64,000 bases of DNA from Castellaniella sp. Lineage in GTDB: Bacteria > Pseudomonadota > Gammaproteobacteria > Burkholderiales > Burkholderiaceae_B. The notes below the pieces were generated by a model that did no database searches, was not told the origin of the DNA, and saw only the letters and a list, made by a program, of their open reading frames with translations. The stretch is taken from positions 1 through 64,000 of the forward strand of contig JAHRWZ010000049.1 of the NCBI GenBank assembly GCA_019104865.1. Reading direction: 5' to 3'. The position numbers and the translations under genes were made by a program. Of the stretch, positions 12,624 to 29,008 are shown piece after piece (the first letter of the stretch is position 1; each line of letters begins with the position of its first letter).

Positions 12624-13062
12624 GTTCGCTGCGGCCAAGTCCGGCCTCAGAATAGTCGCTCGTTGCGATAAGGAAGCTCTCGAGGTTGCATAAGTATGTT
12701 TCACGGTGATTAAGCCAGACCAAGAAAAACCATTTTTAATATTTTCTAACATGCATTCGACTTTTTATGTTTCGGTGTATGTCGTAGAGATCCAATTTTT
12801 TAGGTTATACCAGGGGGCGTATTATTGGTTACCCCTGATTCATTTCAACGGCAATGAAAATTTTTAGAAATAAATTTGCTGTTCGGTCCTTCTAGGATTC
12901 AGTGGCTTGTTACCGAGCCTTTTGGCTGGTACTGAGCCGGAATCAGTTTTATCTATATGTCCGCCCGTAAACGGTCAACGTATTTCGATTTGGTGGCGAG
13001 TTCCTTGTCTGCGGGTGTCGATTTCTAGTGTCTGCGACACGACCAAAACAGTGAGGGTTCCC
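12624..13062. promoter_or_regulatory. AT-rich leader/promoter region of the capsule operon
   Basis: These 440 bp are visibly more AT-rich than the flanking genes, particularly 12720-12880, with runs such as TTTTTAATATTTTC and AGAAATAAATTTG. No gene is supported. It must hold the promoter of the capsule operon; a TATTAT near 12823 is a possible -10 but no convincing -35 partner was found. AT-richness upstream of a capsule locus suggests horizontal origin or silencing by an H-NS-like protein (inference). Confidence 0.45.
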
Positions 13063-14340
13063 GTGGTAAAGAAGATTGCAGTGTGTGGCCTCGGATATGT
13101 CGGCCTACCCGTGGCAGTGGCATTTTCCAGATGCTTCGATGTCGTCGGCTTCGATGTGGACAAGCGGAGAATCGCACGGCTGAAAGAGGGAGATGACTGG
13201 ACCGGCGAGATCGGACGCGACGTATTGCTTGCGTCGACCTTGCAGTTCACCGATCAGCTGCAGGAATTGCAGGGGTGCGGCTTTTTCGTGGTGGCCGTCC
13301 CGACGCCCGTCGATGAGAAGAATAATCCCGATTTTTCCCTGCTGGTCCGGGCTTGCCAGTCGCTAGGTTCCGTGCTGCGTCCCGGCTGCATCGTGGTGTT
13401 CGAATCGACTGTTCACCCCGGTGCCACGGAAGAAATCTGCGGCCCCGAGCTTGAAAAGGCGTCGGGCCTGCGCTGCGGCATCGACTTCAAGCTCGGCTAC
13501 AGCCCGGAACGGATCAATCCGGGCGACCGCAAGCATCCGCTCGAGAAAATCGTCAAGATCGTCTCCGGTCAGGATGCGGAATCGCTGGAAGTGATTGCCG
13601 GCGTTTACGAACGGATTATTGACGCAGGCGTGCACCGCGCCTCCTCCATCAAGGTGGCCGAGGCGGCAAAAGTGCTAGAGAATACGCAGCGCGATATCAA
13701 TATCGCCCTGATGAACGAGGTGTCGAAGATCTGCGATCTGGTCGGCATTCGCACCTCGGAGGTCCTGGCGGCCGCCGGCACCAAGTGGAACTTCCTGAAG
13801 TTCACGCCGGGCCTGGTGGGCGGCCATTGCATCGGCGTTGATCCGTACTACCTGACGTCCAAAGCCCAGGAACTGGGCTATCACCCCGAAGTCATTTTGT
13901 CGGGCCGTCGTATCAACGACGGCATGGCGTCGCATGTTGCCTCGCGCCTGGTGCAGACCCTGGCGCGCAATGGTCGTCTGAACGTGAAAACCCGTGTTGG
14001 CATCCTGGGCATGACGTTCAAGGAGAACGTCCCCGACATTCGGAACTCGAAGGTCGTCGATCTCTACAACGCTCTTGGCCAATACGGCATTACCCCGGTC
14101 GCTTGTGATCCGATGGCCGATCCGGACCAGATGGAGCATGAGTACGGCATCAAGCTCGTTGGGCGTGACCAGTTCTGCGACATGGACGTCTTGATCCTGG
14201 CTGTGCCGCATGACGAAACCATGGACTCCATCTGGGGCGACCTGCCGCAACTGGTCAAGACCGGCGGGATGGTGTGCGACTTGAAGTCCGTCCTGGACAC
14301 GAAACGGCTTCCGACCGACCTCTCGTACTGGACTCTCTAA
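13063..14340 (+). CDS. tviB: Nucleotide-sugar dehydrogenase TviB (UDP-HexNAc 6-dehydrogenase)
   Basis: This 425-residue cytoplasmic enzyme oxidises UDP-N-acetylhexosamine at C6 with 2 NAD+, giving the uronic acid precursor of a Vi-type polysaccharide. It shows the Rossmann motif IAVCGLGYVGLPVA, ESTVHPGATEEICGP, the catalytic-Cys segment GLVGGHCIGVDPYYLT, and MTFKENVPDIRNSKVVD. The last two match TviB/WbpO. The GTG at 13063 is chosen because GAGG lies 6 nt upstream and it gives the family length; the frame is open upstream to 12907. It opens the capsule operon. Confidence 0.9.
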   Translation: MVKKIAVCGLGYVGLPVAVAFSRCFDVVGFDVDKRRIARLKEGDDWTGEIGRDVLLASTLQFTDQLQELQGCGFFVVAVPTPVDEKNNPDFSLLVRACQSLGSVLRPGCIVVFESTVHPGATEEICGPELEKASGLRCGIDFKLGYSPERINPGDRKHPLEKIVKIVSGQDAESLEVIAGVYERIIDAGVHRASSIKVAEAAKVLENTQRDINIALMNEVSKICDLVGIRTSEVLAAAGTKWNFLKFTPGLVGGHCIGVDPYYLTSKAQELGYHPEVILSGRRINDGMASHVASRLVQTLARNGRLNVKTRVGILGMTFKENVPDIRNSKVVDLYNALGQYGITPVACDPMADPDQMEHEYGIKLVGRDQFCDMDVLILAVPHDETMDSIWGDLPQLVKTGGMVCDLKSVLDTKRLPTDLSYWTL

Positions 14341-14379
14341 GTCCACGCCCGTTACCCATCACTACAGGAGAGACCCTGA

Positions 14380-16860
14380 ATGACTGTCTTTGCCATCGCT
14401 CCGATAGGAACCTGCCGCATCCATACGCCGCTGCGCGATGCCCTGGGACGCTACCCGATCAACTTGCAGCTCGGCCGCAACTACGGTTTTGTGCATACGG
14501 CCGCCGAAGCGCTTCAACAGGCGCGATTCATGTTCGGCCAGGCCGACATACCCGCCGACGTCCAGCGCGTGATCTTCCGGCCTTCGAATGGCGAGCAGGC
14601 TCGCCGCGGCACGCACAAGCCGGCCGACCTGTACATGGTCGAGCTGTCTTCGCGCAAGCTCCTGACCATTGACGGCTTTCCCATCCAATCCAACTACCTG
14701 GTCCGCTATTTCAGCGAGTTCTTCGCCGATCGGGCGCGTACCCGCCAGTTCTGGTCCATGGCCAACGCTCAATGTCTTGTCGAGCGTCGCGCCATGCTGG
14801 ACGAGGATCCGGTCTTCAAGAGCCTCAACGCGGACGACCGAGACTTGCTCGCGCGCATCGTCAGGCGCGATCAGACCGACGAGGAGATCGAGCAGGAAAT
14901 GCGTCAGCTCATCGAGCTGCTGGATAGGGACAAGGTGGTGTTCGTCACGCATGTCAATGCCACTACGCCGGACAACGTGGCTATCGAACAGCGGGCGCAA
15001 CTGATCGCTGCCGTGACCGCCGCCGCCCAGCGCACCGGCGTGCCTTGCTACGATCCGACGCCGCTGATGAACAAGATCGGCCAGGCCGACGCGATGGAGG
15101 ACGGTGGGCTCGACCTGACGCACTACACCCCGGTCTTTGCCGAGCGCCTGTACATGGACTGGTACAAAAACTTCATACGTCCGAGGATGGGCACGTCCAC
15201 CCCGCAGCCTGTGGTGCCAAAACTTGCCGCCGACGAGAGCGTCGAGCGCATCGAGAAGCTCTGGGATTCCGGCGACTTGCGAGACGCCTCGTGCCGCGTG
15301 CGCGAAGTGCTTCGCCGCTACCCCCAGTTGCCCGATCACGTGCTGCTGCTCTCGCGGATCCAGGAAGAACTGGGCGATTACGAGGGCTCGCTGGCGCTGC
15401 TGGGCGGCATGGATGGCGTCCAGGCATCGGGCAGCAAGGCCGAACACATCCTGATGCGAAACAAGTTCAAGCTGGGTTGTCATGACGTGGCGTACTCGTT
15501 GGCGACCAGCCTGCTGGGCGACGAGATCGAAACGCCGGAAATCGTCCGGATCGCGGCGGTGTCCGCTGGCCATCTGGGCTACATGGACGAAAGCCTGGGC
15601 TTCTGGAAGCAGTTGTTCCGTATCTCCTCGCCTCGGGACGCGACGGCGATCGAAGCGGCCGACACGGTGCTTGCGTTGCTGCAGGCCGCCGGCGACATGG
15701 AAGCGGCCATCCGCTGGGTTCATGAGGTCCGCGCGGTGCTCCCCGGTCATGGGCGCGGCTTTGCGGTGCTGTGGCGTGATCGGTTGCTGGCTGGCGACCG
15801 CGACGCGCTGCGGGACCTGGCCTCGGAGCATCCCGCGCTGGAGGACGCCGACGTTCTGGAACTGGTCAAGGAAGCCTCGTGGCGAGGTTGCATCATGGCC
15901 GCGGCAACGCTGGTGGCGTCTTGCGGCCTGGCCAAGAGCGAGCAGGAGGAAATCGGCGCATGGCTGCGGACGCAGTCTTCAACCTGGTCCGAGGAAGGCA
16001 ATCGCGCACTGGAGGAAGGACGCCTGCGCGACGCGGCCGAGCGCGTCTGCGCGCACCGTCTGCTGAACCCCCACGAGCTGGCCGGTGTGCGGGCGCAGCG
16101 GGCGTTTGAGCGCGCGATGCGCTTGGGTGTTCGCGCCGCGCTGGTGGCTGGCAATTACAAGGAAGTGATCGACCTGACCAACCTGGCCATCGACACCCAT
16201 GTGGATTTCCCCGAGCTGCACGCCATGCGCGGCCGCGCCGCCGATGCGCTGGGTGACAAGAAGACCGCGATGCGACATCTGGCGCGGGCCGCCGCTGGCG
16301 AGTCCGCGCCGCTCAGCACCAAGCTGCACTATGCGCGGGTCGCGTTCAACGGTGGCTGGTTCGGTGAAGCCATCGACGCGTACAAGGACGTGCTCGCCCA
16401 TTCGTCCGCCGACCAGAGTGCCAGGGACGAAGCGCAGCGCCAGCTCGGCAGGCTGGGCCCGCGTGCGATTCGCGGCGCCCGCCAGATTCTGTCCCAGGGG
16501 GATCATCAGGCCGCCTGGAACCTGCTCGACCGCGTCGCCCAGTCGTGGCCCGAGATGGAGGAAGTCGCTCACGAAAAGCGGCGCATCCTGGCCTATCTGT
16601 ACGCCGAAGCGCGCGCGCTGGAATCGTCGAGCACGACCGAGCGTCTGGCGCTGGGCGAGCGCATCGTGAATCTCGTGCCCGACGATCCCGTCGGCCTGCG
16701 TTTGGCAGCCGTGGGCGCCATGCGCCTGCGCCGCTTCGAGCAGGCCTTGCCGTACTGGAAAAAACTGCGGGAGCGTTCCGATAGTCCGGCGCAGTTCGAC
16801 CGTTACATCGAGCGCTGCTCGGTGTGGATCGAGAAGCTCAACCGGAGGAAGGCGGCATGA
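14380..16860 (+). CDS. tviD: Vi polysaccharide biosynthesis protein TviD-like
   Basis: This 826-residue protein is close to the 831 of Salmonella TviD. Residues 1-270 look like an SGNH/WcbI-type esterase-acyltransferase domain: block I APIGTCRIHTPL, a possible oxyanion Asn193 in VTHVNATT, and the catalytic dyad DLTH (Asp245, His248). The rest (about 285-820) is a helical TPR-like array rich in Ala, Leu and Arg. TviD in Salmonella is linked to O-acetylation and polymer synthesis. AGGAGAG lies 8 nt before the start, and the stop overlaps the next ATG (ATGA). Confidence 0.82.
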   Translation: MTVFAIAPIGTCRIHTPLRDALGRYPINLQLGRNYGFVHTAAEALQQARFMFGQADIPADVQRVIFRPSNGEQARRGTHKPADLYMVELSSRKLLTIDGFPIQSNYLVRYFSEFFADRARTRQFWSMANAQCLVERRAMLDEDPVFKSLNADDRDLLARIVRRDQTDEEIEQEMRQLIELLDRDKVVFVTHVNATTPDNVAIEQRAQLIAAVTAAAQRTGVPCYDPTPLMNKIGQADAMEDGGLDLTHYTPVFAERLYMDWYKNFIRPRMGTSTPQPVVPKLAADESVERIEKLWDSGDLRDASCRVREVLRRYPQLPDHVLLLSRIQEELGDYEGSLALLGGMDGVQASGSKAEHILMRNKFKLGCHDVAYSLATSLLGDEIETPEIVRIAAVSAGHLGYMDESLGFWKQLFRISSPRDATAIEAADTVLALLQAAGDMEAAIRWVHEVRAVLPGHGRGFAVLWRDRLLAGDRDALRDLASEHPALEDADVLELVKEASWRGCIMAAATLVASCGLAKSEQEEIGAWLRTQSSTWSEEGNRALEEGRLRDAAERVCAHRLLNPHELAGVRAQRAFERAMRLGVRAALVAGNYKEVIDLTNLAIDTHVDFPELHAMRGRAADALGDKKTAMRHLARAAAGESAPLSTKLHYARVAFNGGWFGEAIDAYKDVLAHSSADQSARDEAQRQLGRLGPRAIRGARQILSQGDHQAAWNLLDRVAQSWPEMEEVAHEKRRILAYLYAEARALESSSTTERLALGERIVNLVPDDPVGLRLAAVGAMRLRRFEQALPYWKKLRERSDSPAQFDRYIERCSVWIEKLNRRKAA

Positions 16861-18914
16861 GTGCGCCGCTGGTTGCCCAGCAAGTGGACGCCCCGTCCGA
16901 TCTTCAACAGGTTCAAGCGCAGTTGGCGGACATCGTTGCAGGATCGGGGCGGGTTCAAGTTGCACAGGAAAATCTGACTCGGGCGCAGGCGCTGGCCCAG
17001 GATCACATGGAGGACTCGAAGGTCCGCTTTCTGCTGCTTCGCTTGCAGGAGTCGGCGGGCTTGAACGAGGGCATGGCCGAGCAATGGGAGACCTTGTTGC
17101 AGGAATGCCTGGACGATCTGCAGATCGTCCGCCATTGCGCCACGCGACTCGTGAAGGAACGGCGCGTCGAAGAGGCCATGGCGCTGATCGATCGTCATCT
17201 GCCCGAGGCAACGAGCAATGCCGACCGTCTGTTCTCGCGGGCAAAACTGTTAAGCGATATCCGCGCGCACGAACAGTCCGATGCGTTGTTCCGACGGTTG
17301 ATCTCGCAACATACGGACCGCAACATGCGTGCCGAGTTTGCCAAGCGCCTGCGCAAACGCGGCTTGCTGGCTGACGCGTTCGAGGTGATCGCGCCGGTGG
17401 TCAAACACCTGGCGCCCGGCAGCAAGGCGGCCGAACTCGCCGAGGGGCTGGCAAGCGACTATGCGTTCTACCAGCGCTTCGAATCCGAAGACGCGCTGGC
17501 GGGAAAAGACGTCCGGATCGTGTCGATGAAACATGCGATCCTGCACTTTCGCAACCGGAAAATCGCCGAGCATGGGCTGGATAAGACCGTTTCCGTGGCG
17601 CTGGTCACCGGCAGTCTGGGCCCCGGCGGCGCCGAACGGCAACTGACGCGCCTGGCCGGCGAGCTGACCCGTATGGCCAAATCTCGCCGCCGGCGGCCTT
17701 CCGCCGATATTCCTCTGCGGCCCAAGAAGGTCGAAGTGCTGGTCAAACAGCACACCGAACCGACGGGATCGCCCAAGAAGCAGGATGATTTCTTCCTTCC
17801 CGTCCTGGTCAAAGCGCACATTCCGGTCACGGAGATCAACCGGCTGCCGGCCATTTCGGTGTCTCACCAGACCGTTCCCGAAGGAAGCCTGGTCCGTTTG
17901 CTGGAACAATTGCCCCCGCCTGTCCACTATGGCGTGACGCGACTTGCGCCGGTGTTGCGGGCCAACCCGTTCGATGTGGTGAGCCTGTGGCAGGACGGCA
18001 CCTGCCTGTTCGGCGCGCTGGCGGCGTTGCTGGCGGGCACGCCGACCATCCACCTGGTGTTCCGTGGCTTGCCGCCGAACATCCGCAAGGATCGCTTCCG
18101 CGAGGAGTATCCGGAACTGTATCAGGCCCTGGCCCAGGTGCCAGGCGTGGTCTTCGTCAGCAACAGCCGCAAGGCTGCGCAAGCCTACTCGGAATGGCTG
18201 GACATTCCGATCGAGCGCTTCCACATCCTGTACAACGGCGTGCCCGACTTGCCGACCGATGCGTCGGCCGCCGACAAGGCAATGTGGAAGGCCTTTCATG
18301 CCAGCACGGACAACGCCACGGAGACGATCGGCGGCGTGTTCCGGCTAGAACCGGACAAGCGGCCGCAGCTGTGGATCAAGCTGGCCGCGCTGTATCTGAA
18401 GGAACGCCCGCATGCGCGCTTTGTCATCGTGGGAGACGGGCGCTTGCGCGAGAACATCGAGGCGCTGGCGCAAGAGCTGCATGTGACCGACCGGCTGTTG
18501 CTGGTGGGCTTGTCCAACCATGTCGGCTATTGGTATTCGCAGATGGACGCCAGCGTGCTGCTGTCGCGCTACGAAGGTTTGCCGAACGTGCTGATCGAGG
18601 CCCAGTTGCTGGGGGTTCCCGTGATCTCGACGCCGGCCGGCGGCGCGGGCGAGTGCTTCGTGGAAAACGAGACGGGCCACCTGCTCAGCGACGTCGTTCA
18701 TCCGGACTTGCATGAGGCGTGCGAGAAGGTCACATCGATGGTGGATAAGGCGCGCAGCAATGAGGACTTGGGGGTGCATAGCCGTCGTCGGGCACAGAAG
18801 CTGTTTTCGCTGGAGGCAATGCTCACCAAGTTCCTGAGCCTGTGCATGCCCGACCTGTCCGGGAACAGCGATCGCATCGATCTCGCGCCGTCCGTGCACC
18901 TGATGCGAGCGTGA
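16857..18914 (+). CDS. tviE: Vi polysaccharide polymerising glycosyltransferase TviE-like (GT4)
   Basis: This 685-residue protein is the likely polymerase for the GalNAcA-type chain. An N-terminal helical repeat region (1 to about 230) precedes a GT-B fold: VTGSLGPGGAERQLTRLA near residue 255, an acceptor half, and a GT4 donor half with FVIVGDG and the EX7E motif EGLPNVLIE near 570. Salmonella TviE has 578 residues; here the extra length is mostly N-terminal. The start at 16857 follows GGAGGA and overlaps tviD by 4 bp, so both should be made in fixed ratio. Confidence 0.85.
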   Translation: MSAPLVAQQVDAPSDLQQVQAQLADIVAGSGRVQVAQENLTRAQALAQDHMEDSKVRFLLLRLQESAGLNEGMAEQWETLLQECLDDLQIVRHCATRLVKERRVEEAMALIDRHLPEATSNADRLFSRAKLLSDIRAHEQSDALFRRLISQHTDRNMRAEFAKRLRKRGLLADAFEVIAPVVKHLAPGSKAAELAEGLASDYAFYQRFESEDALAGKDVRIVSMKHAILHFRNRKIAEHGLDKTVSVALVTGSLGPGGAERQLTRLAGELTRMAKSRRRRPSADIPLRPKKVEVLVKQHTEPTGSPKKQDDFFLPVLVKAHIPVTEINRLPAISVSHQTVPEGSLVRLLEQLPPPVHYGVTRLAPVLRANPFDVVSLWQDGTCLFGALAALLAGTPTIHLVFRGLPPNIRKDRFREEYPELYQALAQVPGVVFVSNSRKAAQAYSEWLDIPIERFHILYNGVPDLPTDASAADKAMWKAFHASTDNATETIGGVFRLEPDKRPQLWIKLAALYLKERPHARFVIVGDGRLRENIEALAQELHVTDRLLLVGLSNHVGYWYSQMDASVLLSRYEGLPNVLIEAQLLGVPVISTPAGGAGECFVENETGHLLSDVVHPDLHEACEKVTSMVDKARSNEDLGVHSRRRAQKLFSLEAMLTKFLSLCMPDLSGNSDRIDLAPSVHLMRA

Positions 18915-18944
18915 TTGGCGATCGCTCTTTTTGCCGCCAGGCCG

Positions 18945-19012
18945 CCCTAAGGCAAAAAGCGCCCCCTTGGGGGCAGCAAGCCGAAGGCGCAGCGTGGGGG
19001 TTTTTCCAAGCG
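18945..19012. repeat. GC-rich hairpin repeat between tviE and vexA
   Basis: The spacer contains GCCCCCTTGGGGGCAGC (inverted GCCCCC/GGGGGC around 18960-18976), then GCCGAAGGCGCAGCGTGGGG. This resembles a dispersed intergenic repeat seen in Bordetella/Achromobacter-type genomes. It separates synthesis genes (tviB-E) from export genes (vexA-E) and could partially terminate or stabilise the mRNA. The family link is from memory, not from a search. Confidence 0.6.
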
Positions 19013-19031
19013 GCTGAAGTGGAATGATCTT

Positions 19032-20189
19032 ATGCAAATGAAAGCCCTGACCCTGAACGCGCGGCGCCACACGACCCTGACCATGCTGCTGCTTGCCGCA
19101 CTGACACTCACGGGTTGTCAACTTCCGCGGTCCGGCCCCATGCTAAGTGAAATGATGGGGGCTCACGATGACAAGGACGTCATCGTGATGCCTGTGTCGC
19201 GCGAACTTGCACAGCAGAGCCGGGATCCCGAGGTGGCCAATTTTCCCGTACGCTACCGCGACCTGACACAAGCGGGATTCGACCGGCTGGTGCCTGGCGA
19301 CGGCATCAACATCAAGGTGTGGGAGCGCGGTGACCTGGGCGTGTTCGCGGCGGACCCGTCCGGCGTGAGCGACCTGGGAAACCATGAAATCGACCGTTCG
19401 GGCCATGTCTCGTTCCCCATCCTCGGCAAGTTTCGGGCCGAGGGCCTGACCCTCGGACAGCTGCATGACGCCGTGATGGCGCGCCTGAGCAAGCTTGTCG
19501 TGGGCGCCGACGTCAGTGTGACACGCGCTGCCGACGAACGTGGGCAGGTGGTGACGGTGCAGGGAAACCTGACCAAGCCCGGCATGTATCCCATCACGCA
19601 GACCTCCCAGCGCCTGAGCAGCGCGCTGGCGCAGGCCGCGCCGGTCCAAGAGAATCCCGAGCAACTGATCATCAGCCTGCGCCGCGACAAGCAGGTGGCG
19701 TCGGTGCGGCTGTCGGATATCTACCGGAACCAGAACAACGACATCCTGTTGCGATCGGGCGATGTCATTACCGTTTATGACTCCAAGGAGTTCCTGACCG
19801 TGCTGGGAGCTGCCGGCACCCAAGGGCGCGTGGCCATCAGCAAGCGCAATTACAGCGTGCTGGATGCGCTGGCCGATTCCAGGGGGCTGGACGACAAACT
19901 GGCGGATCCGCGTTCCGTGTTCCTGTTCACACCCGCAAAGGCCGGGGTGGCCGGCAAGCCGGACAAGCTGCCTGTGGTCTACCAGTTTGACCTGACCCGT
20001 CCGGAGCAGGTGGCGCTGGCGCGCGAATTCACAGTGCACGAAGGCCAGGCGATCTATATTTCGGACGCGCCATTCACGCAGGTGCAGAAGGTCCTGTCGG
20101 CCTTCCGCTTCACGATGAGCGCGGGCTTCAGCGCCACGAAGAACATCGACAACGATACGGGCGCCGGCGCGTCCGCGCCAGCCCAATAG
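19032..20189 (+). CDS. vexA: Outer-membrane capsule export lipoprotein VexA (Wza/KpsD family)
   Basis: This 385-residue outer-membrane polysaccharide export protein has a lipoprotein signal with lipobox LTLTGC (Cys29). A PES domain follows: RLVPGDGINIKVWERGDLGV, DRSGHVSFPILGKFRAEGLT, then SLBB-like repeats with QVVTVQGNLTKPGMYPI and LLRSGDVITVYD. Salmonella VexA is 355 residues. It forms the translocation channel for the capsule. The next gene starts one base after its stop, so it is co-translated with the permease gene. Confidence 0.9.
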   Translation: MQMKALTLNARRHTTLTMLLLAALTLTGCQLPRSGPMLSEMMGAHDDKDVIVMPVSRELAQQSRDPEVANFPVRYRDLTQAGFDRLVPGDGINIKVWERGDLGVFAADPSGVSDLGNHEIDRSGHVSFPILGKFRAEGLTLGQLHDAVMARLSKLVVGADVSVTRAADERGQVVTVQGNLTKPGMYPITQTSQRLSSALAQAAPVQENPEQLIISLRRDKQVASVRLSDIYRNQNNDILLRSGDVITVYDSKEFLTVLGAAGTQGRVAISKRNYSVLDALADSRGLDDKLADPRSVFLFTPAKAGVAGKPDKLPVVYQFDLTRPEQVALAREFTVHEGQAIYISDAPFTQVQKVLSAFRFTMSAGFSATKNIDNDTGAGASAPAQ

Positions 20190-20190
20190 C

Positions 20191-21537
20191 ATGTCGAAGA
20201 GCAACGAGGAGCGGATCAAAGGCTGGCGATCGCGCCGAAAAGGCGGAAACTATACGGTAGGGTCCGGAGTCGCCGACTGGCGGCTGGATCCGGCCGCGCT
20301 GTTCGAAGCCAGGGCCACGCCGGCCGTGTTGTTCAAACCCCTGCTTGCCCGCTTGCAGGGTGAGCCGCACGATTCCGTGGCGGCCCGGCGGGCGGTGTAT
20401 GAGGCGGTGCAGGCGGAGCTGGAGGCGGAGATCGCGCGCAGCGCGGTCGACGAAAACCTGGCCGGTTTTTCCCGGCGGCGCCTGCGCATCATCGTGCGCC
20501 TCCTGGAACAGGACATCCGCGCGGGCGTGGCGGTATTCGAGCCGGGCTACATGCCGGCCAAGCTGGTGGCCGAGGACGAGCGCCTGGCCGTGGCGCATGC
20601 GCGGCGCGTGGAGCGACGCAAGCAGGACGAGGCGCGTGAAGCGCGGCGCCATGCATCACGCAACGACATTGCGCTGGAAATCGAGGTGGAGCAGGACGAA
20701 GCGGGCGATCTGGCGATCCTGCGGGACCGGTTGCGCGTCTTGCACGAAGGGCGCCCGCCGGACATGGCCGGCAAGGCCCGGCCAGCCGGGCGCACGCTGA
20801 TGGCGATGTTCATCTATCAGTTGCGTGAGATGCAGGGCGAGAGCCGCATCGCTTTGGTGTGGGCGCTGGTCGGTCCCGTGGTGCTGCTGACCTTGATTTC
20901 GTCGCTGTATATCCTGATGGGTACGCATTACATCATGGGCATGGACGTGCAGACGTTCGCGCTGTTGGGGGCGACGACCTGGATCATGTTCCGGCAGATC
21001 GCCTTCCGGAGCAGCACGGCCTATGTGTCGGCCCGCGGCCTGCTGAACTTCCAGGGCGTCACGCCCTTGATGTGCGCGCTGGTGCAGTCGCTGATCTATG
21101 TGTCGGTCTATCTGGTGGTGTTCGCGGTGCTGATCGGCGCGGGCCACGCGCTAGGCCTCATTACCTTGCCGGTCAGCTGGGCCGGCTTCATGCTTTTCGT
21201 CGTTCTGATGGGGTGTTGCGGCGCGGCGATGGGGTTGCTGTTCGGAACGATCGCGACTTTCTGGCGCTTCTTTCTGCGGCTTGCGCCGATTATCGAACGT
21301 TTTCTGCAGATCTTCGCGTCCGTCTTTTTCGTATCGGAACAGTTTCCGGAGCAATTGCGCCCGTGGGTGCTCTGGTCGCCGTTCGCGCATGGCATGCAGT
21401 TGCTGCGTTCGGCTTACTTCCCCGCGTACCAGTCGCACGATGCCAGCCTGGGCTATTTCCTGACCTCGCTGGTATTCCTGATGGTGGTCGCCCTGATGGT
21501 CGAGACCCTGGCCCGCCCCCGTGTCCAGCCGATGTGA
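20191..21537 (+). CDS. vexB: Capsule ABC exporter permease VexB with extra N-terminal domain
   Basis: This 448-residue protein contains a C-terminal ABC-2 permease of about 255 residues (from LMAMFIYQLREMQGESRIAL onward, six hydrophobic segments, conserved MFRQIAFRSSTAYVSARGLL), matching KpsM/VexB, normally about 260 residues. In front are about 190 hydrophilic, highly charged residues with no transmembrane segment (for example RRLRIIVRLLEQDIRAGVAV and ARRVERRKQDEAREARR), predicted helical and cytoplasmic. The fused region has no motif I recognise. An internal start near 20800 would give a normal-length permease, but no strong ribosome site was seen there. Confidence 0.85.
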   Translation: MSKSNEERIKGWRSRRKGGNYTVGSGVADWRLDPAALFEARATPAVLFKPLLARLQGEPHDSVAARRAVYEAVQAELEAEIARSAVDENLAGFSRRRLRIIVRLLEQDIRAGVAVFEPGYMPAKLVAEDERLAVAHARRVERRKQDEAREARRHASRNDIALEIEVEQDEAGDLAILRDRLRVLHEGRPPDMAGKARPAGRTLMAMFIYQLREMQGESRIALVWALVGPVVLLTLISSLYILMGTHYIMGMDVQTFALLGATTWIMFRQIAFRSSTAYVSARGLLNFQGVTPLMCALVQSLIYVSVYLVVFAVLIGAGHALGLITLPVSWAGFMLFVVLMGCCGAAMGLLFGTIATFWRFFLRLAPIIERFLQIFASVFFVSEQFPEQLRPWVLWSPFAHGMQLLRSAYFPAYQSHDASLGYFLTSLVFLMVVALMVETLARPRVQPM

Positions 21538-21564
21538 GGTAGAACCTGTGCGAGGCCCCTTTTA

Positions 21565-22302
21565 ATGTTGACAGACCCAGGGAAGATTATCCAGTTCAAT
21601 GGCGTGACCGACGAGCCGTATGTCTTCGGCCGCCGGCAAGCGCTGCTGGCTCATGCCCATCTCGATATCCCGGTCGGGCGCTATGCCTTGCTGTCGCACG
21701 TACCGGAAATGCATCGCCATCTGTTGGACGTACTGTGCGGCTTGCGTCCGCCGAGCCGGGGCTTCGTCAAGCATGATTGCACCGTGTCGTGGGCGATCGG
21801 CCGGCAAGGCTTCATTCGCGGCAAGGCAACCGGCCTGAGCATGATCGATTTCGTCAGTGAAATGTACGAGATCGACGCCGATGCGACGCACGAGCTGGTT
21901 GCGGACCTGATCAGCGATCCCAAATGCCTGGCCAAGCCCATGGAACATTGGCCGCTCTACGCGCGGCAGGAGTTTTCGTTCGCCCTGGCGCTGGCGCCGG
22001 CGTTCGACGTCTACGTGATCGAAGGGAGCATTCCCTTCGAGCCCTGCCGTTTCACGCGCCTCTGGCTCGCCCTGTTCGAAGAACGGCTGGTGAGCCGGAC
22101 TCTTATTTTCTCCAGCTACCGCCAGAATCAGTTGGCGGACTATTGTTTCAAAGGTTTGATCTATGAACGAAGCGCGCTCCGCATCGACGACGACCTCGAC
22201 CAGTGCATCAGCAGGTTTCCCCCGCGACGATCGCGAAGCGACTCCGGAACACATGGAGAAGACCTCGGCGACGGCATCGACGAGGGCCAGCTCGGGTTCT
22301 GA
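21565..22302 (+). CDS. vexC: Degenerate KpsT/VexC-type ABC subunit without catalytic motifs
   Basis: This 245-residue protein aligns with KpsT along its length: LDIPVGRYALLSHVPEMHRH in the place of the P-loop, VSWAIGRQGFIRGKATGLSM for the Q-loop region, and LALAPAFDVYVIEG for Walker B. The P-loop GxxxxGK[ST] is gone, the signature position reads PLYARQEFSFAL instead of YSSGMR, Walker B lacks the DE pair, and the H-loop His is replaced in IFSSYRQNQLAD. It sits between permease and co-polymerase genes, where the ATPase belongs. ATP hydrolysis looks impossible as written. The last 30 or so residues run over the vexD start and may be unconserved. Confidence 0.75.
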   Translation: MLTDPGKIIQFNGVTDEPYVFGRRQALLAHAHLDIPVGRYALLSHVPEMHRHLLDVLCGLRPPSRGFVKHDCTVSWAIGRQGFIRGKATGLSMIDFVSEMYEIDADATHELVADLISDPKCLAKPMEHWPLYARQEFSFALALAPAFDVYVIEGSIPFEPCRFTRLWLALFEERLVSRTLIFSSYRQNQLADYCFKGLIYERSALRIDDDLDQCISRFPPRRSRSDSGTHGEDLGDGIDEGQLGF

Positions 22303-23455
22303 AGACGGGTCGGAGATCGAGCGTCGTCGCCGCGAGCGGCAGTCGGCGCTGCGCGAGCGCCGCCGCCATCGCTGGATCAACGCCCTGATCGTCGTGGCGC
22401 CGGTGGCGTTCGCCTTGGTCTACGTGTATTTCTTCGCCACGCCGCGCTATGAGGCGGAGTCACGGTTCTTCGTGCAGTCGGCATCCGTCCAGCAAGGCGG
22501 CGCGGGCGCTGCGGCTGGTCTGCTCACCACGGGAAATGCGGGCGGCATGCTCGGCGGCTTCGTGGATGGGTGGGCGGTCGCCGACTTTGTGAAGTCGCGT
22601 GACAGCATGCAGCAGCTCGACCAGCAGGTCGGCCTGCGTCGTTATCTGACAAACGCCGGGTTGGACCCGCTCAATCATCTTTCCGAGGATTCCAGCGAGG
22701 ACGAGCTGTATCGAGCTTACCAGGCGTCGGTGCATGTCTCGTTCAACGCATTGGAGCAGATCGATGTGCTGCGGGTCAGCGCGTTTTCCCCGGAAGACGC
22801 GGCCACGCTGTCCAAGGCGCTGATCGGCCTGGCCGAGAAATTCGTCAGCACCATGAACGAGAAGGGCGTTGCCGACAAGCTGGCGGTGAGCCAGGAGTCG
22901 GTCAGGCTGGCGGAGGAGAAGGCACTCGCGGCCCGGGATGCGCTGACGGCATGGCGCACGGCGCATGGAAACGTCGACCCCGCCGCCACGGTGTCGATGC
23001 TGTTGAATCTGTCCAGTCAGCTGGAAGGGGAGCTCAGCACCGCGCAGATCAGGCTGGACAAGATTCAGGCCCTGGGTAACGAAGAACACTTCATGCTCGA
23101 GCCGGCCGAGCTGCAAGTCGCCGCCCTGAAAAAGCGGCTCGCGTCCGTGCGCTATCGCCTGAGCGGAGACGACAATGCGGAAGCCAAGCAGCTCAAATCC
23201 TACGAGGCGCTGCGCAATGCCCAGGCGTTCGCGGATTCAAACCTGACCCTCGCGCAGCAGTCGTACCAACAGGCAATGACGGACGCTTTACGCTTGCAGC
23301 GATATCTGTCCATCATCGCGCAACCGGTTCCCACGGACCGGCCTAGCAGCCCGCGCACGGCTCTTCTGTTGTTGCAGGCGCTGGCGCTGGGCTTCGTGCT
23401 CATGTTCATCGCTCGCGTGACGATGGCTTTGTTGAGAGGACTGCGTCATGGTTGA
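22163..23455 (+). CDS. vexD: Capsule export polysaccharide co-polymerase VexD (KpsE family)
   Basis: This 430-residue inner-membrane protein spans the periplasm between the ABC exporter and the VexA channel. A polar Ser/Thr/Arg-rich N-terminal tail leads to TM1 (about 72-92, INALIVVAPVAFALVYVYFF), the PCP1 segment PRYEAESRFFVQS, a coiled-coil domain and TM2 near 402-424 after the conserved PVPTDRPSSPRT. The ATG at 22163 has AAAGG 8 nt upstream but overlaps vexC by 140 bp; an in-frame ATG at 22253 would reduce this to 50 bp. Salmonella VexD has 434 residues. Confidence 0.88.
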   Translation: MNEARSASTTTSTSASAGFPRDDREATPEHMEKTSATASTRASSGSEDGSEIERRRRERQSALRERRRHRWINALIVVAPVAFALVYVYFFATPRYEAESRFFVQSASVQQGGAGAAAGLLTTGNAGGMLGGFVDGWAVADFVKSRDSMQQLDQQVGLRRYLTNAGLDPLNHLSEDSSEDELYRAYQASVHVSFNALEQIDVLRVSAFSPEDAATLSKALIGLAEKFVSTMNEKGVADKLAVSQESVRLAEEKALAARDALTAWRTAHGNVDPAATVSMLLNLSSQLEGELSTAQIRLDKIQALGNEEHFMLEPAELQVAALKKRLASVRYRLSGDDNAEAKQLKSYEALRNAQAFADSNLTLAQQSYQQAMTDALRLQRYLSIIAQPVPTDRPSSPRTALLLLQALALGFVLMFIARVTMALLRGLRHG

Positions 23456-25367
23456 TACGGCGATGGAGAATCGCCGGCCTGTGGCTGGCACCGATTCGCA
23501 GGGCGCCACCGCCCGCTTGCGCGAGATCATCGGGCTGATCCGCGGCGCGGCCGACCCCGAGCGCGACATGGCCGCGCTCGAACCTGCGTTGCGACAGGCC
23601 AAGGACGGTTGGCGTGATGTCCGGCGATTGCTGGTTTCGCCCTTCGTGCGCGAAGGCCGGTTCGGACCCGCGATCGCCGCGCTGGGCGTACTGATTGCCG
23701 TCCATCCCTCGCGCGTCGAAGACCGCCGCCTGCTCGCCAGTCTTTTCGGGCGCATGGAGCAGTGGGATAGGGCGATTGTCGAGGCGGACGCCGCCGCTGG
23801 CATCGAGCCCCGCAACGCGGCGGTGCACGCCGTGCGGATTCAATTACGCGTGCAGGGGGGGCGGGAGGCCGAGGCGGCGGAAGTTGGCCGCGCGACCCTT
23901 GCCCTGGCCCAAAGCGAGCCGGGCGAAGCGTACGCCTGGATGATGGCTTTCGTGCGCAACGGTGATGTCGCCGAGGCGGCGGGCATCGCGGCGGCGCTGG
24001 ATCCGGAAAAGCTGCCGAACGGACGCGTGGCGACGATGGCCGTGCGAGCTCTGATAGAGGATGGCCGCACTGTGGCGGCGATCCGGTTTGGCGATACCGC
24101 ACTGTGCGCGGGCCACGATTGCGCGGCGCTGCGTTCGTCGCTAGGCCTCGCGCATCTGCGGCGCGGCACTTCAGCCGATCGCAAGGTGCATGCGGTGGCG
24201 CATTTCGAAGCAGGCTTGCAGGCAGCGCCGGCGGACGTGAGGCTGTTGACGCTTTATGGGGAAACCCTGCTGCGCGCCGGCCGCTACAACGAAGCGGCGC
24301 CGCCGCTGGCGCGAGCACTGGAACTGGCGCCGGAACTGGAGCAGACCCGCGCCCTGTATGCCCGTGCGCTGCGCCACACCCTGCAGTATGGCGATGCGGC
24401 CGATCAGTGGATGAGACTGGTCGAGAAGTCCCCGGACAAGTTGCTGTGGCAGCGGGCCGCCATCGGCGCGCTCACGCAGGCGGGTCGTCATGAGGAGGCG
24501 GAGGCGCTGTTCTCGCGATACATCGCCACGCGCAGCGCGCGGCTGCCGGGCACGTTCCAGGAAGCCCTGGCCCGCATGGAAGCAAAACTGGATACCGTGC
24601 CCATTCCGCAGGCGCGGCTGGATTGGGCCTGGTCGCTGCGCGGCGACACATCCATCGATCGCGCGGCCTGGGAGCGCCGGGCGCGCTGGGGCCATATGAT
24701 CGACCATCTGCTGCTCGACTGGCTCGAATGCCGCGAGGAACGCGCCGAAGAGGCCATGCATCTGCTGGGCGAACTCGATACCGGCGAGCGCTTTTTTGCG
24801 CCGTTGCTGGCGGCCGGACGCGGTGTCGTGGTCGCCACGGCGCACGTGGGCCCCATGTACGCCGGCTTGATGGCCATGGAACTGGTGGGCATTCCGTCCC
24901 GCTGGCTGGCGACGGCGCCCAGCATTGCCAGAAGCAGTTATTCCGAAGCGCTGATCTCCACCGCCGACCAGACCGAGGCCCAGGTTGCCAAGGCCTGCAT
25001 GCGTGCGATCAACGAGGGCTATGTGCTGTGTCTGGCCATCGATGGGGCAATCAATCCCGCCGCGCCGCGCACGACCTTCGAAGGGCAGGACGTGACGTAC
25101 TCCGGTTTTGCGTCCCATCTGGCGTACCGCCTGAAAGTGCCCTCGGTGTTCTACGTGCCCCGCTGGGAGAACGGGCGCATGTCCTACACGCTGGAGATGT
25201 TGCCGGCGGCCAATCCGGGCGAGGATGCGCAAGCCTATTCGCTGCGCTGGCAGAAGGCGTATTTCGAACGGCTTCGTGAACACTTGGCCAGTGAACCGGA
25301 AAATCTGCGCCTGAGCGGCGGTATCTGGCGTCATGTGACGTCCGCGGATCGGTCCGCGCAAGAATAG
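23448..25367 (+). CDS. vexE: VexE-like capsule terminus acyltransferase
   Basis: This 639-residue protein (Salmonella VexE 658) has an N-terminal helical TPR-like region (to about 430) and a C-terminal LpxL/LABLAT-type acyltransferase domain (GRGVVVATAHVGPMYAGLMA; AIDGAINPAAPRTTF; YRLKVPSVFYVP). VexE is known in Salmonella to be needed for the lipid anchor at the reducing end of Vi. The usual HX4(D/E) motif appears as His466-VGPM-Tyr, so the catalytic acid is absent. It overlaps vexD by 8 bp and is followed by the lyase gene after 12 bp. Confidence 0.82.
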   Translation: MVDTAMENRRPVAGTDSQGATARLREIIGLIRGAADPERDMAALEPALRQAKDGWRDVRRLLVSPFVREGRFGPAIAALGVLIAVHPSRVEDRRLLASLFGRMEQWDRAIVEADAAAGIEPRNAAVHAVRIQLRVQGGREAEAAEVGRATLALAQSEPGEAYAWMMAFVRNGDVAEAAGIAAALDPEKLPNGRVATMAVRALIEDGRTVAAIRFGDTALCAGHDCAALRSSLGLAHLRRGTSADRKVHAVAHFEAGLQAAPADVRLLTLYGETLLRAGRYNEAAPPLARALELAPELEQTRALYARALRHTLQYGDAADQWMRLVEKSPDKLLWQRAAIGALTQAGRHEEAEALFSRYIATRSARLPGTFQEALARMEAKLDTVPIPQARLDWAWSLRGDTSIDRAAWERRARWGHMIDHLLLDWLECREERAEEAMHLLGELDTGERFFAPLLAAGRGVVVATAHVGPMYAGLMAMELVGIPSRWLATAPSIARSSYSEALISTADQTEAQVAKACMRAINEGYVLCLAIDGAINPAAPRTTFEGQDVTYSGFASHLAYRLKVPSVFYVPRWENGRMSYTLEMLPAANPGEDAQAYSLRWQKAYFERLREHLASEPENLRLSGGIWRHVTSADRSAQE

Positions 25368-25379
25368 GGAGGGGCTTCT

Positions 25380-26594
25380 ATGTTTGCACGAAAGAATGCG
25401 ATGACATGGCTGCTGGTGTCGGTGCTGGCCGCACTATATGGCGGCCCGGCGACAGCCGGGGAGCAGTGCGCGGCGCCGGATGAACATTGCCCATTCGTGT
25501 CCGCGCTGTTGCAGGAGCGCGAGGGCTATGGCGCCAGTGCCACGGGCGGGCTGGGCGGCAAGTTTGTCGAGGTGACATCGGACCGGAACGCGGGGCCCGG
25601 CACGCTGCGCGCCGCGCTGAAGCACGCCCGCAAAGGGCCGACGTGGATACGCTTCGCCTCCGACATGACCGTCGTCCTGGATTCGCAGTTGCGCGTGCCG
25701 TCCGACACGACAATAGACGGACGCGGCAAGCGGGTGGTCTTGATCGATGACGGGTTGGGCGTCTATGGAAGCCGGAACGTCATCCTGACGCATCTGACGA
25801 TAGACGGGCGCCTGAACCGATTCACGCAAGCCGTGAACGTGGCCAACGGCAGCCGCGACGTGTGGGTTGACCACATGGACCTGTCGCGGATGTCCGACCG
25901 CCTGCTCAATGTGAAGAACGGTTCGACCGACGTGACGATCTCGTGGACCAAGTTCCACGACTCGGACAAGGTCATGCTGCTGAACAACATTACCTCGAAG
26001 AACCTGTTTCAGAACTACCAGCGCGATTCGATCGCGCGCGTGACGCTGCACCACAACTATTTCTTCAACACCGTGCAGCGCAATCCCAGGGCGCAGTTCG
26101 GCACCTTCCACCTGTTCAATAACCTGGTGGAGAATTGGGATTTCTATGGCATGAGCTTCAGTCTGGAGGCCAAGGCCCTGGTCGAAGGAAACATCTTCAA
26201 CAACGACTCCCGGCGCAAGTGTGTGGAGCCCGAGTTCTTCCCCACGGTGGAAGGCATTGATGTGAATTACTGTCGCTATATCTCCATCGCGCCCGGACGC
26301 AGTGCGCTGGATAACGGCGAATCCGATCGCGAGGCCTACGAGAAACTGAAATCCCGGTATGGCTATACCCGCGACTACAAGGCCTTTCTGCGGTTGAAAG
26401 ACAACCTGTATCTTGGCGATGCGAAGCCGGTGCTGCGGGACTACCGCCCCGAATCGGCTCCGACGCCTTCGTATTGCTACGGTTATGAAAAGCCGACGCA
26501 GGGTCTGGCCGAGAAAATACGCAAGTTCGCGGGCAACACGTCCGTGGATACCCCGCTGCCTGAATCGCGCACGGGCGTGGGTTGTCCAGGCTGA
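25380..26594 (+). CDS. vexL: Periplasmic polysaccharide lyase, pectate-lyase fold (VexL-type Vi depolymerase)
   Basis: This 404-residue enzyme has a signal peptide (MTWLLVSVLAALYGGPATAG) and a right-handed beta-helix of the pectate lyase 1 family: TTIDGRGKRVVLIDDGLGVY, VWVDHMDLSRMSDRLLNV, VTISWTKFHDSDKVMLL and the Arg-containing HHNYFFNTVQRNPRAQFG. It is the last gene of the Vi-type operon, 12 bp after vexE, with GGGAGG before its ATG. Vi polymer is a pectin-like chain of acetylated GalNAcA, and a periplasmic Vi lyase called VexL is described from Achromobacter denitrificans. It probably trims polymer that stalls in the periplasm. Confidence 0.86.
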   Translation: MFARKNAMTWLLVSVLAALYGGPATAGEQCAAPDEHCPFVSALLQEREGYGASATGGLGGKFVEVTSDRNAGPGTLRAALKHARKGPTWIRFASDMTVVLDSQLRVPSDTTIDGRGKRVVLIDDGLGVYGSRNVILTHLTIDGRLNRFTQAVNVANGSRDVWVDHMDLSRMSDRLLNVKNGSTDVTISWTKFHDSDKVMLLNNITSKNLFQNYQRDSIARVTLHHNYFFNTVQRNPRAQFGTFHLFNNLVENWDFYGMSFSLEAKALVEGNIFNNDSRRKCVEPEFFPTVEGIDVNYCRYISIAPGRSALDNGESDREAYEKLKSRYGYTRDYKAFLRLKDNLYLGDAKPVLRDYRPESAPTPSYCYGYEKPTQGLAEKIRKFAGNTSVDTPLPESRTGVGCPG

Positions 26595-26633: not shown

Positions 26634-28649
26634 TCAAACCGGCGTGTGCGGCAGCTCCTCCAAGGGCGCTGCCGGCGGCAAGCCCGTGGCTTCGCAGATC
26701 TCTTTTTCATTCAGCGTCTCGCGCTCGAGCAGGGCTTGCACCAGCGCATCCAGCGCACGGCGATGCTCACGCAGCAGCGTCAGGGCCTTGCTGTGGCATT
26801 CCGAGATAATGGCTTGGACTTCGGCATCGACCAGGCTTGCCGTCTGCTCGCTGAGCGTCGGCCCGCCGCCGTACGTATTGCCGAGATAAGGATTCTGCCG
26901 TTCCGCAAGCTGAACCATACCCAGTTTGTCGCTCATTCCCCAACGCGTGACCATATTGCGCGCCAGACCGGTGGCCTGCTCGATATCGTTCTCGGCGCCT
27001 GTCGTGCGGGTGCCGTACACGACTTCCTCGGCTGCCCGGCCGCCCAGCATGCCGACGATGCGGGCGTGCAGGTAGGCCTCGGGGTAGTTGTAGCGGTCAG
27101 ATGAGGGGCGTTGATACGTGACGCCCAGCGCCTGGCCTCGCGGTACGATGGTCACCCGGTGCACCGGGTCGGCACCGGCCACCAACAAGCCCAGAATCGC
27201 GTGTCCGCTTTCATGGTAAGCAATGCGTTCGCGGTCCGCGTGGCTCAGAATCAACGGCCGTTCCGGCCCCAGCATGATCTTTTCAAGTGAGTCATCGAAG
27301 TCTTTCTGGGTGACGGAATCCTGTTCGCGTCGGGCAGCCAGCAAGGCCGCCTCGTTCACCAGGTTCTTGAGATCCGCGCCCGACAAACCGGGCGTTGCCT
27401 CCGCCACCTGCGCAAGGCTGGTATCCTCCGCCAGAGGTACTTTGCGGGTGTGTACCTTCAGGATTGCCTGCCTGCCGTTCTTGTCCGGCAGGTTCACCAC
27501 CACGCGGCGGTCGAAGCGGCCCGCTCGCAGCAAAGCCTTGTCGAGGATGTCAGGTTGGTTGGTGGCGGCAAGTACGATGACGCCTTCGCGCCCCGAAAAG
27601 CCATCCATTTCCGTCAGGATCTGATTGAGCGTCTGTTCTTGTTCGCTCGTCCCGCCGATCGCCACCTGGCCGCGCGCGCGGCCAATGGAATCAATCTCGT
27701 CAATGAAAATGATGGACGGTGCATGCTCGCGAGCCTGCCGGAACAGATCGCGTACCCGTGCCGCGCCCACACCGACGATCATCTCGACGAATTCCGCCGC
27801 GCTCATGGAAAAGAACGGTACCCCGGCTTCTCCGGCCACGGCCTTGGCGAGCAAGGTCTTGCCGGTGCCCGGGGCGCCGACGAGCAACACCCCCTTGGGC
27901 GCGGAGCCGCCCAGACGCGAATATTTTTCCGGATCTTTGAGGAAATCGACGATCTCGACAAGCTCGTTCTCGGCTTCGTCGATGCCCGCCACATCGTCGA
28001 ACGTGACCCGATGCACGGTATCCTGATCATAGCGGCGCGCTTTGCTTTTGCCCATGCCAAAAGCCGCGCCCATCCCCCCGCCACCCTGTGTCGCACGCCG
28101 GTACATCCAGACATAGAAGGCGATGATGATCAGCGCGGGCCCGAAGCCGTACAGCAAGGTCCCCATCAAGTTGCTTGTCTGGATCGGTACGGCCTGGATC
28201 TCGACCTTGTGCTCATTCAGGAAACGCTCGAACCCCGGGTCGATAAACGTCGGCAGGATGCTCTCGAATGTGTGCGACGTACGAGGGCTGCTTTCCGAGC
28301 CGACTGCCGGCGAGCCCCCACCCGAAGCACCAGGGGACGGCCAGGTGAAGGGGTGCACGAAACGGCCTTCGATACGGTCACCCTGGCTATAGATGGCGGT
28401 CACGTTGCCCTGCGTAACCTGCGCTTTGAAAACGGTATACGGTATTGTGATGGGCGTTTCCTCGCCCGGCGTGAAAAACCGCATCAACGCATAATTGACT
28501 GCCAGCACGACTAGAAACAGCCACCAGATGCGGCCAGGATGCAGCCCCCCCGGCTGTCCACCCTGGCCTGGCGCTGAAGGGCGTCCTGCCGGCGCCCCGC
28601 GTGGCGCATCGGTACGATTGGGCGAACGGCTTGCCTTGGACCATTTCAT
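26634..28649 (-). CDS. ftsH: ATP-dependent zinc metalloprotease FtsH (second-type paralog)
   Basis: This 671-residue membrane AAA+ protease has a Pro/Gly-rich N-terminus, TM1 ([15 protein letters not shown]), a periplasmic domain, and TM2 near residue 165. The AAA module has GAPGTGKT (Walker A), [15 protein letters not shown] (Walker B) and [13 protein letters not shown], and the zinc site [10 protein letters not shown] lies near residue 475. The start at 28647-28649 has AAGGA 6 nt upstream; the frame extends further without support. It is not beside rlmE and folP, as the housekeeping copy usually is, and has an atypical N-terminal stretch, so it is likely an additional copy. Confidence 0.93.
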
Positions 28650-29008
28650 GCAGATTCCTTGCGTATGAGATGTTTGCAAGAAGGCGGCGCTGTGCAAAGC
28701 GTAGACCGGGCAGGTAAATCCGGCCTGTCCCGTCTGTGCGGGAGAGAAAAGGTTATCAGATATTTTGGGCGCGACGTGGCCCAGGAAGTCATCGATCGCC
28801 GCCAAAGACTTGGCGCCCAGGCTTGCGCAAGCAGCACCTGCCTGGATGATCGAATGTCATTCATATCAAAAAATGCATTTATAGCCACAAAATAATTATC
28901 AAATGAGTTTGTGCCCCTGCTAGGATGACATCGTGAGTGGGGCGTTAAAACTCTGGTCGCCAGGATGCCCCGAAGTCGCCTTGATAACCTTTTAAAGGAA
29001 CTTCCCCC
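28650..29008. promoter_or_regulatory. Divergent promoter region between ftsH and the hydrolase/ABC operon
   Basis: This 359-bp spacer carries no supported gene. The middle (28850-28905) is AT-rich, with ATTCATATCAAAAAATGCATTTATAG-like sequence and AATAATTATC, which fits a promoter for the rightward operon. An AAAGGA ribosome site precedes the ATG at 29009. Confidence 0.4.

Follow-up and report, generated by a model that had tools for sequence, protein, structure and literature searches.

The window analysed here, a 64,000-nucleotide stretch of Castellaniella sp. (assembly GCA_019104865.1, contig JAHRWZ010000049.1, positions 1 to 64,000), contains a Vi-type capsule locus with the gene order tviB, tviD-like, tviE, vexA, vexB, vexC, vexD, vexE, vexL-like (12907-26594), in which tviB, tviD, tviE and vexA to vexE are all present. 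Our subject is the vexC-like gene (21565..22302, + strand, as are all capsule genes below), which occupies the slot of the ATPase subunit of an ATP-binding cassette (ABC) exporter. It encodes a nucleotide-binding domain (NBD) of 245 amino acids without the motifs for ATP binding and hydrolysis. From its sequence and those of its relatives, we conclude that VexC is very probably a non-hydrolysing pseudo-NBD.

VexC has a predicted KpsT-like fold and lacks the ATPase motifs

The VexC family profile matches KpsT (8tsh/8tsi) over positions 1-218 with E=3e-24 (profile hits being the best 120 of 213), and the alignment therefore spans the whole domain. As a single protein, VexC matches no Pfam family at E<=1, and its score of 16.5 bits against the NCBIfam VexC model (NF011724) is below the curated cut-off of 313. 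An AlphaFold2 model (predicted local distance difference test, pLDDT, 86.6) has its best structural matches (Foldseek, VIA-align) in KpsT, then Wzt and TagH, and VexC is predicted to keep the ABC motor-domain fold, with KpsT as its nearest neighbor. Set beside NBDs of the KpsT, Wzt and TagH type, VexC has the fold and the domain-wide homology, and lacks Walker A, the signature, the catalytic Glu, the switch His and the Q-loop Gln.

The replacements affect all five motifs. VexC reads ALLSHVPEMHRHLLDVLCGL at the stretch where KpsT has GLIGRNGAGKSTLMRLLGG: in the former Walker A (residues 44-52; 21694..21720) the three P-loop glycines have become S44, P47 and M49, the Lys is H50 and the Ser is R51. 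In the former Q-loop (residues 79-90; 21799..21834), which also holds R80, G86 and G90, the Gln is R85. The former signature region (residues 127-138; 21943..21978), with W129, R134, Q135 and E136, has P130 L131 Y132 A133 in place of SSGM. The former Walker B and D-loop (residues 148-163; 22006..22053) has E153 G154 for DE, followed by P157, E159 and R162, and the switch (H-loop) region (residues 183-189; 22111..22131) has Y185 for the His, next to R186. The pattern [GA]xxxxGK[S/T] is absent from 21565-22302 in every frame of both strands, leaving no hidden frame with a normal Walker A; its three matches between 12907 and 26594 all fall on the strand opposite the genes or in another reading frame.

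The gene starts 27 nucleotides past vexB, and the vexD open frame overlaps its last 140 nucleotides (22163-22302). VexC R221, which lies in this overlap, is invariant in the 115 homologues described below, and the real vexD start is therefore probably further in than the start of the open frame.

The original prediction, made from the letters of this stretch alone, had placed the gene in the vexC slot with an end-to-end alignment to KpsT, a replaced P-loop and an intact frame tightly packed in the operon, and each of these points was borne out. It had also described the signature, Walker B DE and switch His as replaced. This holds for the signature and the His; in Walker B the catalytic Glu is lost throughout the family, but the Asp is only changed to Glu here and is kept in some relatives.

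The replacements are conserved in a family of homologues

We found 132 VexC homologues and consider the 120 that were listed, whose source names include Bordetella, Achromobacter, Castellaniella, Paraburkholderia, Caballeronia and one Erwinia. The motif tally uses 115 of these, five being set aside for lengths outside 225-265 amino acids; 51 of the 120 were picked by hand for one family alignment. None of the 115 has the canonical residue at the three P-loop Gly, the Lys, Ser51, the Q-loop Gln, signature Ser130, signature Gly132 or the catalytic Glu, and 111 have Gly154 at the last of these. Partial exceptions are Asp153 (20 homologues), Ser/Thr52 (15), Ser/Ala131 (2) and His185 (1). GxxxxGK[S/T] occurs nowhere in any of the 120 proteins. 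At the same positions, KpsT-type controls (the 24 loci scoring 25-120 bits at that stage, lower-scoring ones being left out) were canonical in 24/24, save Gln85 (20/24) and position 131 (22/24).

The new residues are themselves conserved. S44, R51, R80, R85, G90, R134, E136, Y150, P157, R162 and R186 are invariant in 115/115, G86 and P47 are found in 114, and H50 in 112. Among 60 non-redundant sequences, columns at least 97% conserved make up 23 of 56 in the former motif neighbourhoods, chosen by hand, versus 24 of 156 in the rest (p=1.3e-4). To judge from these columns, the former ATP pocket is remodelled and then held, not released.

Database names for the homologues include 'ATPase', 'P-loop NTPase' and 'capsular polysaccharide transport system ATP-binding protein', though the P-loop is absent. 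Three database copies (P0087, P0106, P0120) look frame-shifted, two of them continuing into VexD-like sequence, probably through sequencing errors.

VexC is under purifying constraint similar to that of its companions. The ratio of nonsynonymous to synonymous substitution rates (dN/dS) was 0.113 for vexC outside the vexD overlap, 0.106 for vexA, 0.122 for vexB, 0.112 for vexD, 0.115 for tviE (L031 and L032 left out for in-frame stops in the aligned stretch) and 0.163 for vexE. VexC is also more conserved than most companion proteins in two complete distant loci: 62% identity in G069 (VexA 48, VexB 55, VexD 51, VexE 53, TviE 54, TviD 47, TviB 73, VexL 67) and 65% in G703 (VexA 53, VexB 54, VexD 56, VexE 57, TviE 59, TviD 46, TviB 80, VexL 65). 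In a tree with 20 hand-picked family rows, the low-scoring L049 being left out, a branch with full support (100/100) sets the family apart, on a stem of several changes per site; inside the family no single branch exceeds 0.56. Among 399 genomes of the order, VexC matches separate into a set of 3 scoring 431-439 bits and a set of 31 scoring 61-109 bits, and among 369 genomes of the class 12 match, with only the window's own above 96 bits.

The window comes from a draft assembly (3.46 Mb, 102 contigs, 89% complete), as might favor a sequencing error, an assembly artefact or a decaying gene. We reject this explanation as having next to no probability, since the 115 homologues from many sources share the same replacements, a closed genome (G010) holds an 87% identical copy, and dN/dS is 0.11. 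The earlier statement that this is not simple decay is thus strongly supported by the conserved replacements, by a dN/dS like that of vexA, vexB and vexD, and by the single clade.

The permease carries an N-terminal extension

The adjacent permease VexB consists of a KpsM/ABC2_membrane-like membrane domain (20776..21537) preceded by an extension of about 195 residues that is predicted to be helical (20191..20775) and was seen only with pseudo-VexC. These residues precede the membrane domain in all of the first 30 pseudo loci compared (27 distinct, three pairs being identical in the compared vexC stretch), and in L088 of another family. The open frame upstream of the membrane domain is 194-245 residues long in the pseudo loci, and their alignments to the window VexB start at residues 1-6. 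The corresponding open stretch is 8-80 residues long in permeases adjacent to KpsT-type NBDs, except for one (L037) with 145, of which 27 follow the first Met, and in 10 loci with KpsT-type NBDs the BLAST match to the window VexB starts at residue 167 or later. The extension matches no Pfam family (best E 0.57). In the VexB model (pLDDT 54.9 overall) it is helical, residues 40 to 150 scoring roughly 75-87, and most of the rest is unreliable. Charged residues of VexB such as E217, E369 and E383 are invariant in 30/30 pseudo loci, whereas in 19 KpsM rows they fall outside the four most frequent residues. The window VexB shares 99% identity with its counterpart in Castellaniella sp. MT123.

The capsule locus and its surroundings

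Model matches identify the tviB-like nucleotide-sugar dehydrogenase (12907..14340), the tviD-like gene (14380..16860) and tviE, the Vi polymerase of glycosyltransferase family 4 (GT4; 16824..18914). They are followed by vexA, for the outer-membrane export protein (19032..20189), and, beyond vexB and vexC, by vexD, for a KpsE/BexC/CtrB-type co-polymerase (22163..23455). The acyltransferase gene vexE (23448..25367) encodes H466 and D532, as numbered in PMC9597891, and the last gene encodes a VexL-like polysaccharide lyase (25380..26594), VexL being the name used in PMC9597891 and PMC11229556. Some, not all, of the tvi and vex products pass the NCBIfam cut-offs.

We compared the locus with 16 named loci, found with patterns from the window's own VexE (which favors near relatives). 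They start inside tviB and extend 10 kb past vexE, so that genes left of tviB are hardly covered. Of the 16, 15 contain the whole run, with tviB truncated where the locus ends; the remaining one (L035) stops short of vexC. No tviB match was found within the 34 kb read around tviD-vexL in G010. The window genome encodes a TviC-like epimerase away from the capsule locus (G000:C8:6189-7196; 483.7 bits, curated cut-off 760). The best TviC-model matches were 452-488 bits in 6/6 genomes, all below 760, and the same search also matches 11/14 controls. A second TviC-like copy lies between vexE and vexL in G013 (L085).

Past the lyase lies a convergent FtsH-type protease gene (26634-28805). It was rejected as a conserved neighbouring ATPase because it, like four other window flank genes, has no match in L001-L052, a comparison that hardly reaches genes left of tviB.

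The search for a second ATPase

No second NBD is encoded in the reading frames of the genes between tviB and vexL in the window, the 15 named loci or the other loci scanned. GxxxxGK[S/T] has no match in this interval in 13 of the 15 named loci. L021 has two matches, one in an alternative-frame reading of 82 residues within vexC and the other in a reading of 182 residues; in L026 a single match runs across a stop. We therefore reject a hidden second NBD in the locus, as the pattern matches only short or broken alternative readings of two loci.

Elsewhere in the genome, the VexC model at E<=1e-8 found no KpsT-type NBD in four of 15 pseudo-VexC genomes (G000, the window genome; G010; G024; G038), and an unlinked KpsT is therefore not required. 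At E<=1e-4 the best other matches in these four are at most 27.6 bits, and 14/14 controls also match. We consider it likely that no other NBD substitutes for VexC.

Motif loss in a second lineage

A KpsT-slot protein in a kps-type, non-Vi operon, together with KpsM-like, KpsE-like and outer-membrane export genes (L111, G146:C9; L116:11751-12431), reads GAPGSGRST, WPMAV and DG and has no switch His. It is the exception to Walker A in the scan of the order; the 24 controls had none. A congener (G843; L126, G843:C30:61966-62631) is intermediate, with GAPASGRST, a changed signature and DE kept, and G847, from another genus of the same family, has an ordinary KpsT. Both G146 and G843 hold one additional, weaker match at another place in the genome. 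Because L111, in a tree with 12 hand-picked family rows, again without L049, groups with the ordinary KpsT rows and not with pseudo-VexC (on a long branch whose place is unsure), and because the series from G847 (ordinary) through G843 (partly lost) to G146 (mostly lost) is graded, loss of the KpsT motifs has probably begun twice, the second case apparently independently.

Discussion

The original prediction offered two readings of this gene, a structural subunit that recruits another ATPase or an exporter with a non-standard energy source, and we consider the second to be the best reading. The chances seem to us about even that capsule chain transport by the VexB-VexC exporter proceeds without VexC hydrolysing ATP. 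In the mechanism that we propose, VexC would stay docked on the permease as a dimeric clamp, holding the VexB channel in a workable shape, and its former ATP pocket would now offer an arginine-rich surface for contacts or for a ligand. The additional VexB domain could take over part of the lost coupling. The push would most likely come from TviE, whose processive elongation of the chain at the mouth of the channel would resemble that by cellulose and hyaluronan synthases, and VexD and VexA would carry the chain outward. In PMC9597891, TviE is said to use no polyprenol carrier and to be similar to those processive synthases, and nascent Vi to be protected during export, the latter suggesting that synthesis and export are closely coupled. 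Chain growth is, on our best reading, the most economical energy source for export; that polymerisation is the main push we hold as a tentative view, at somewhat short of even chances.

Several observations weigh against this picture. With the S. Typhi locus in E. coli DH5alpha, disruption of vexC is reported to leave Vi in cytoplasmic bodies (PMC3448643), and polymerisation alone is therefore insufficient in the Salmonella locus. In an ordinary KpsMT, the Walker B substitution E151Q is reported to abolish secretion (PMC11041684). Further matches to the VexC model at E<=1e-8 occur in 11 of the 15 pseudo-VexC genomes, and the same search matches 4 of 14 control genomes. Six of the 11 have KpsT-like NBDs (68-75 bits), so sharing is possible there; generic ABC NBDs are also possible partners of VexB, and G000 is only 89% complete. 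The role given to the VexB extension is a guess, since the VexB model is poor. The locus is patchy, with a close VexC in 15 of 150 related genomes (the window's own included) and in 0/8 congeners (G001-G008), and may be dispensable. As to whether the system works at all, PMC9597891 names A. denitrificans as a producer of Vi and describes the locus as conserved in some Bordetella and Achromobacter; Vi capsule synthesis loci are listed among those with most insertions in a screen of A. xylosoxidans (PMC9430717), and a tviC mutant of that species is reported to have a phenotype in mice (PMC10353400). These Achromobacter strains would be expected to carry pseudo-VexC, because it is present in each of the 13 named loci from Achromobacter and Bordetella that include vexC (L023-L034, L036; found through the window's VexE), although the VexC of the A. 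denitrificans producer was not among the sequences compared. Lastly, our account of the exporter's working and driving force is inferred here from sequence.

The first of the two readings, a structural subunit recruiting another ATPase, is weakened but not without points in its favor. An ordinary ABC ATPase encoded elsewhere could energise VexB, either as a homodimer replacing VexC or as its partner, with VexC as an adaptor. NBD sharing is known for some sugar importers. In the 15 genomes the VexC model initially gave between 80 and 138 candidate places each, so that generic NBDs are probably abundant, and six of these genomes hold a KpsT-like NBD. However, each of those six adjoins its own KpsM/VexB-like permease (L037-L042), there is no NBD between tviB and vexL, and four of the 15 genomes, one of them closed, have no KpsT-type NBD. 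Further, ATP sites are composites of motifs from both NBDs (PMC7756269), and because VexC has lost the signature half as well as the Walker half, a mixed dimer should have no complete site. We consider a borrowed ATPase unlikely.

Alternatively, the remodelled pocket of VexC (H50, R51, R85, E136, E153) might still accommodate a nucleotide or some other ligand and use it for gating, perhaps sensing a UDP-sugar or the acylated Vi terminus. The former pocket is the most conserved region, with invariant Arg (R51, R80, R85, R134, R162, R186) plus E136 and E159, but none of the 115 homologues retains the P-loop Gly, Lys or Ser or the signature Ser or Gly, and a conserved pocket may serve dimer contact alone; we think this distinctly unlikely. 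It is more doubtful still that VexB is driven by the proton motive force, in the manner of ABC membrane domains of the SbmA/BacA type, which lack NBDs, and that VexC is a scaffold. SbmA is a precedent and the invariant E217, E369 and E383 are suggestive, but by its sequence position E369 seems to be near the cytoplasmic end of a helix, and the VexB model is too weak to place it.

Taken together, we postulate that a whole lineage of Vi-type exporters is an ABC transporter without a working ABC ATPase, in which the one NBD would be a fixed pseudo-enzyme clamp, the permease would have acquired a 195-residue coupling domain, and the growing chain, pushed by TviE, would drive export, with loss of the KpsT motifs independently under way in a second Burkholderiales lineage. 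We offer this full picture as speculation, and think it less likely than not. Descriptions of ABC capsule export have it powered by ATP; given a conserved natural exporter without the motifs, the shares of export that are paid for by the ABC motor and by chain synthesis become a testable question. Vi export may also be energised differently in Salmonella and in the Burkholderiales, a point to consider where Achromobacter proteins stand in for the Salmonella system. In addition, the labels 'ATPase' and 'ATP-binding protein' on pseudo-VexC proteins are very likely wrong.

Comparison with known systems

SbmA/BacA is an ABC-like membrane domain that works without an active NBD and has no NBD-like partner, whereas the window locus keeps a dead NBD under strong selection. 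Salmonella VexC presumably has ordinary motifs. The VexC of the Salmonella Typhi viaB locus (NF011724; PMC3448643) shares its slot, kind of locus and companion genes with the window VexC, which nevertheless falls far below the cut-off of the Salmonella model. Among the matches listed from open-licence literature, titles and the starts of abstracts gave no report of a Vi exporter NBD without its motifs. The B. pertussis KpsT (PMC4264864), a KpsT-slot protein from the same family of bacteria, is reported to be 40% identical to E. coli KpsT and hence is apparently an ordinary ATPase of another capsule locus. KpsT of the KpsMT-KpsE of Schlegelella thermodepolymerans (8tsh/8tsi/8tsl; PMC11041684) has the motifs and is described as needing its Walker B Glu, in contrast to the window VexC, which lacks all five, and to the window permease with its 195-residue N-terminal domain. 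Finally, TAP, TM287/288 and CFTR (PMC7756269) share with VexC a conserved, non-decaying degenerate nucleotide site. However, these transporters keep one complete site, whereas the only NBD gene of the window locus has lost both halves, leaving a VexC homodimer with none.
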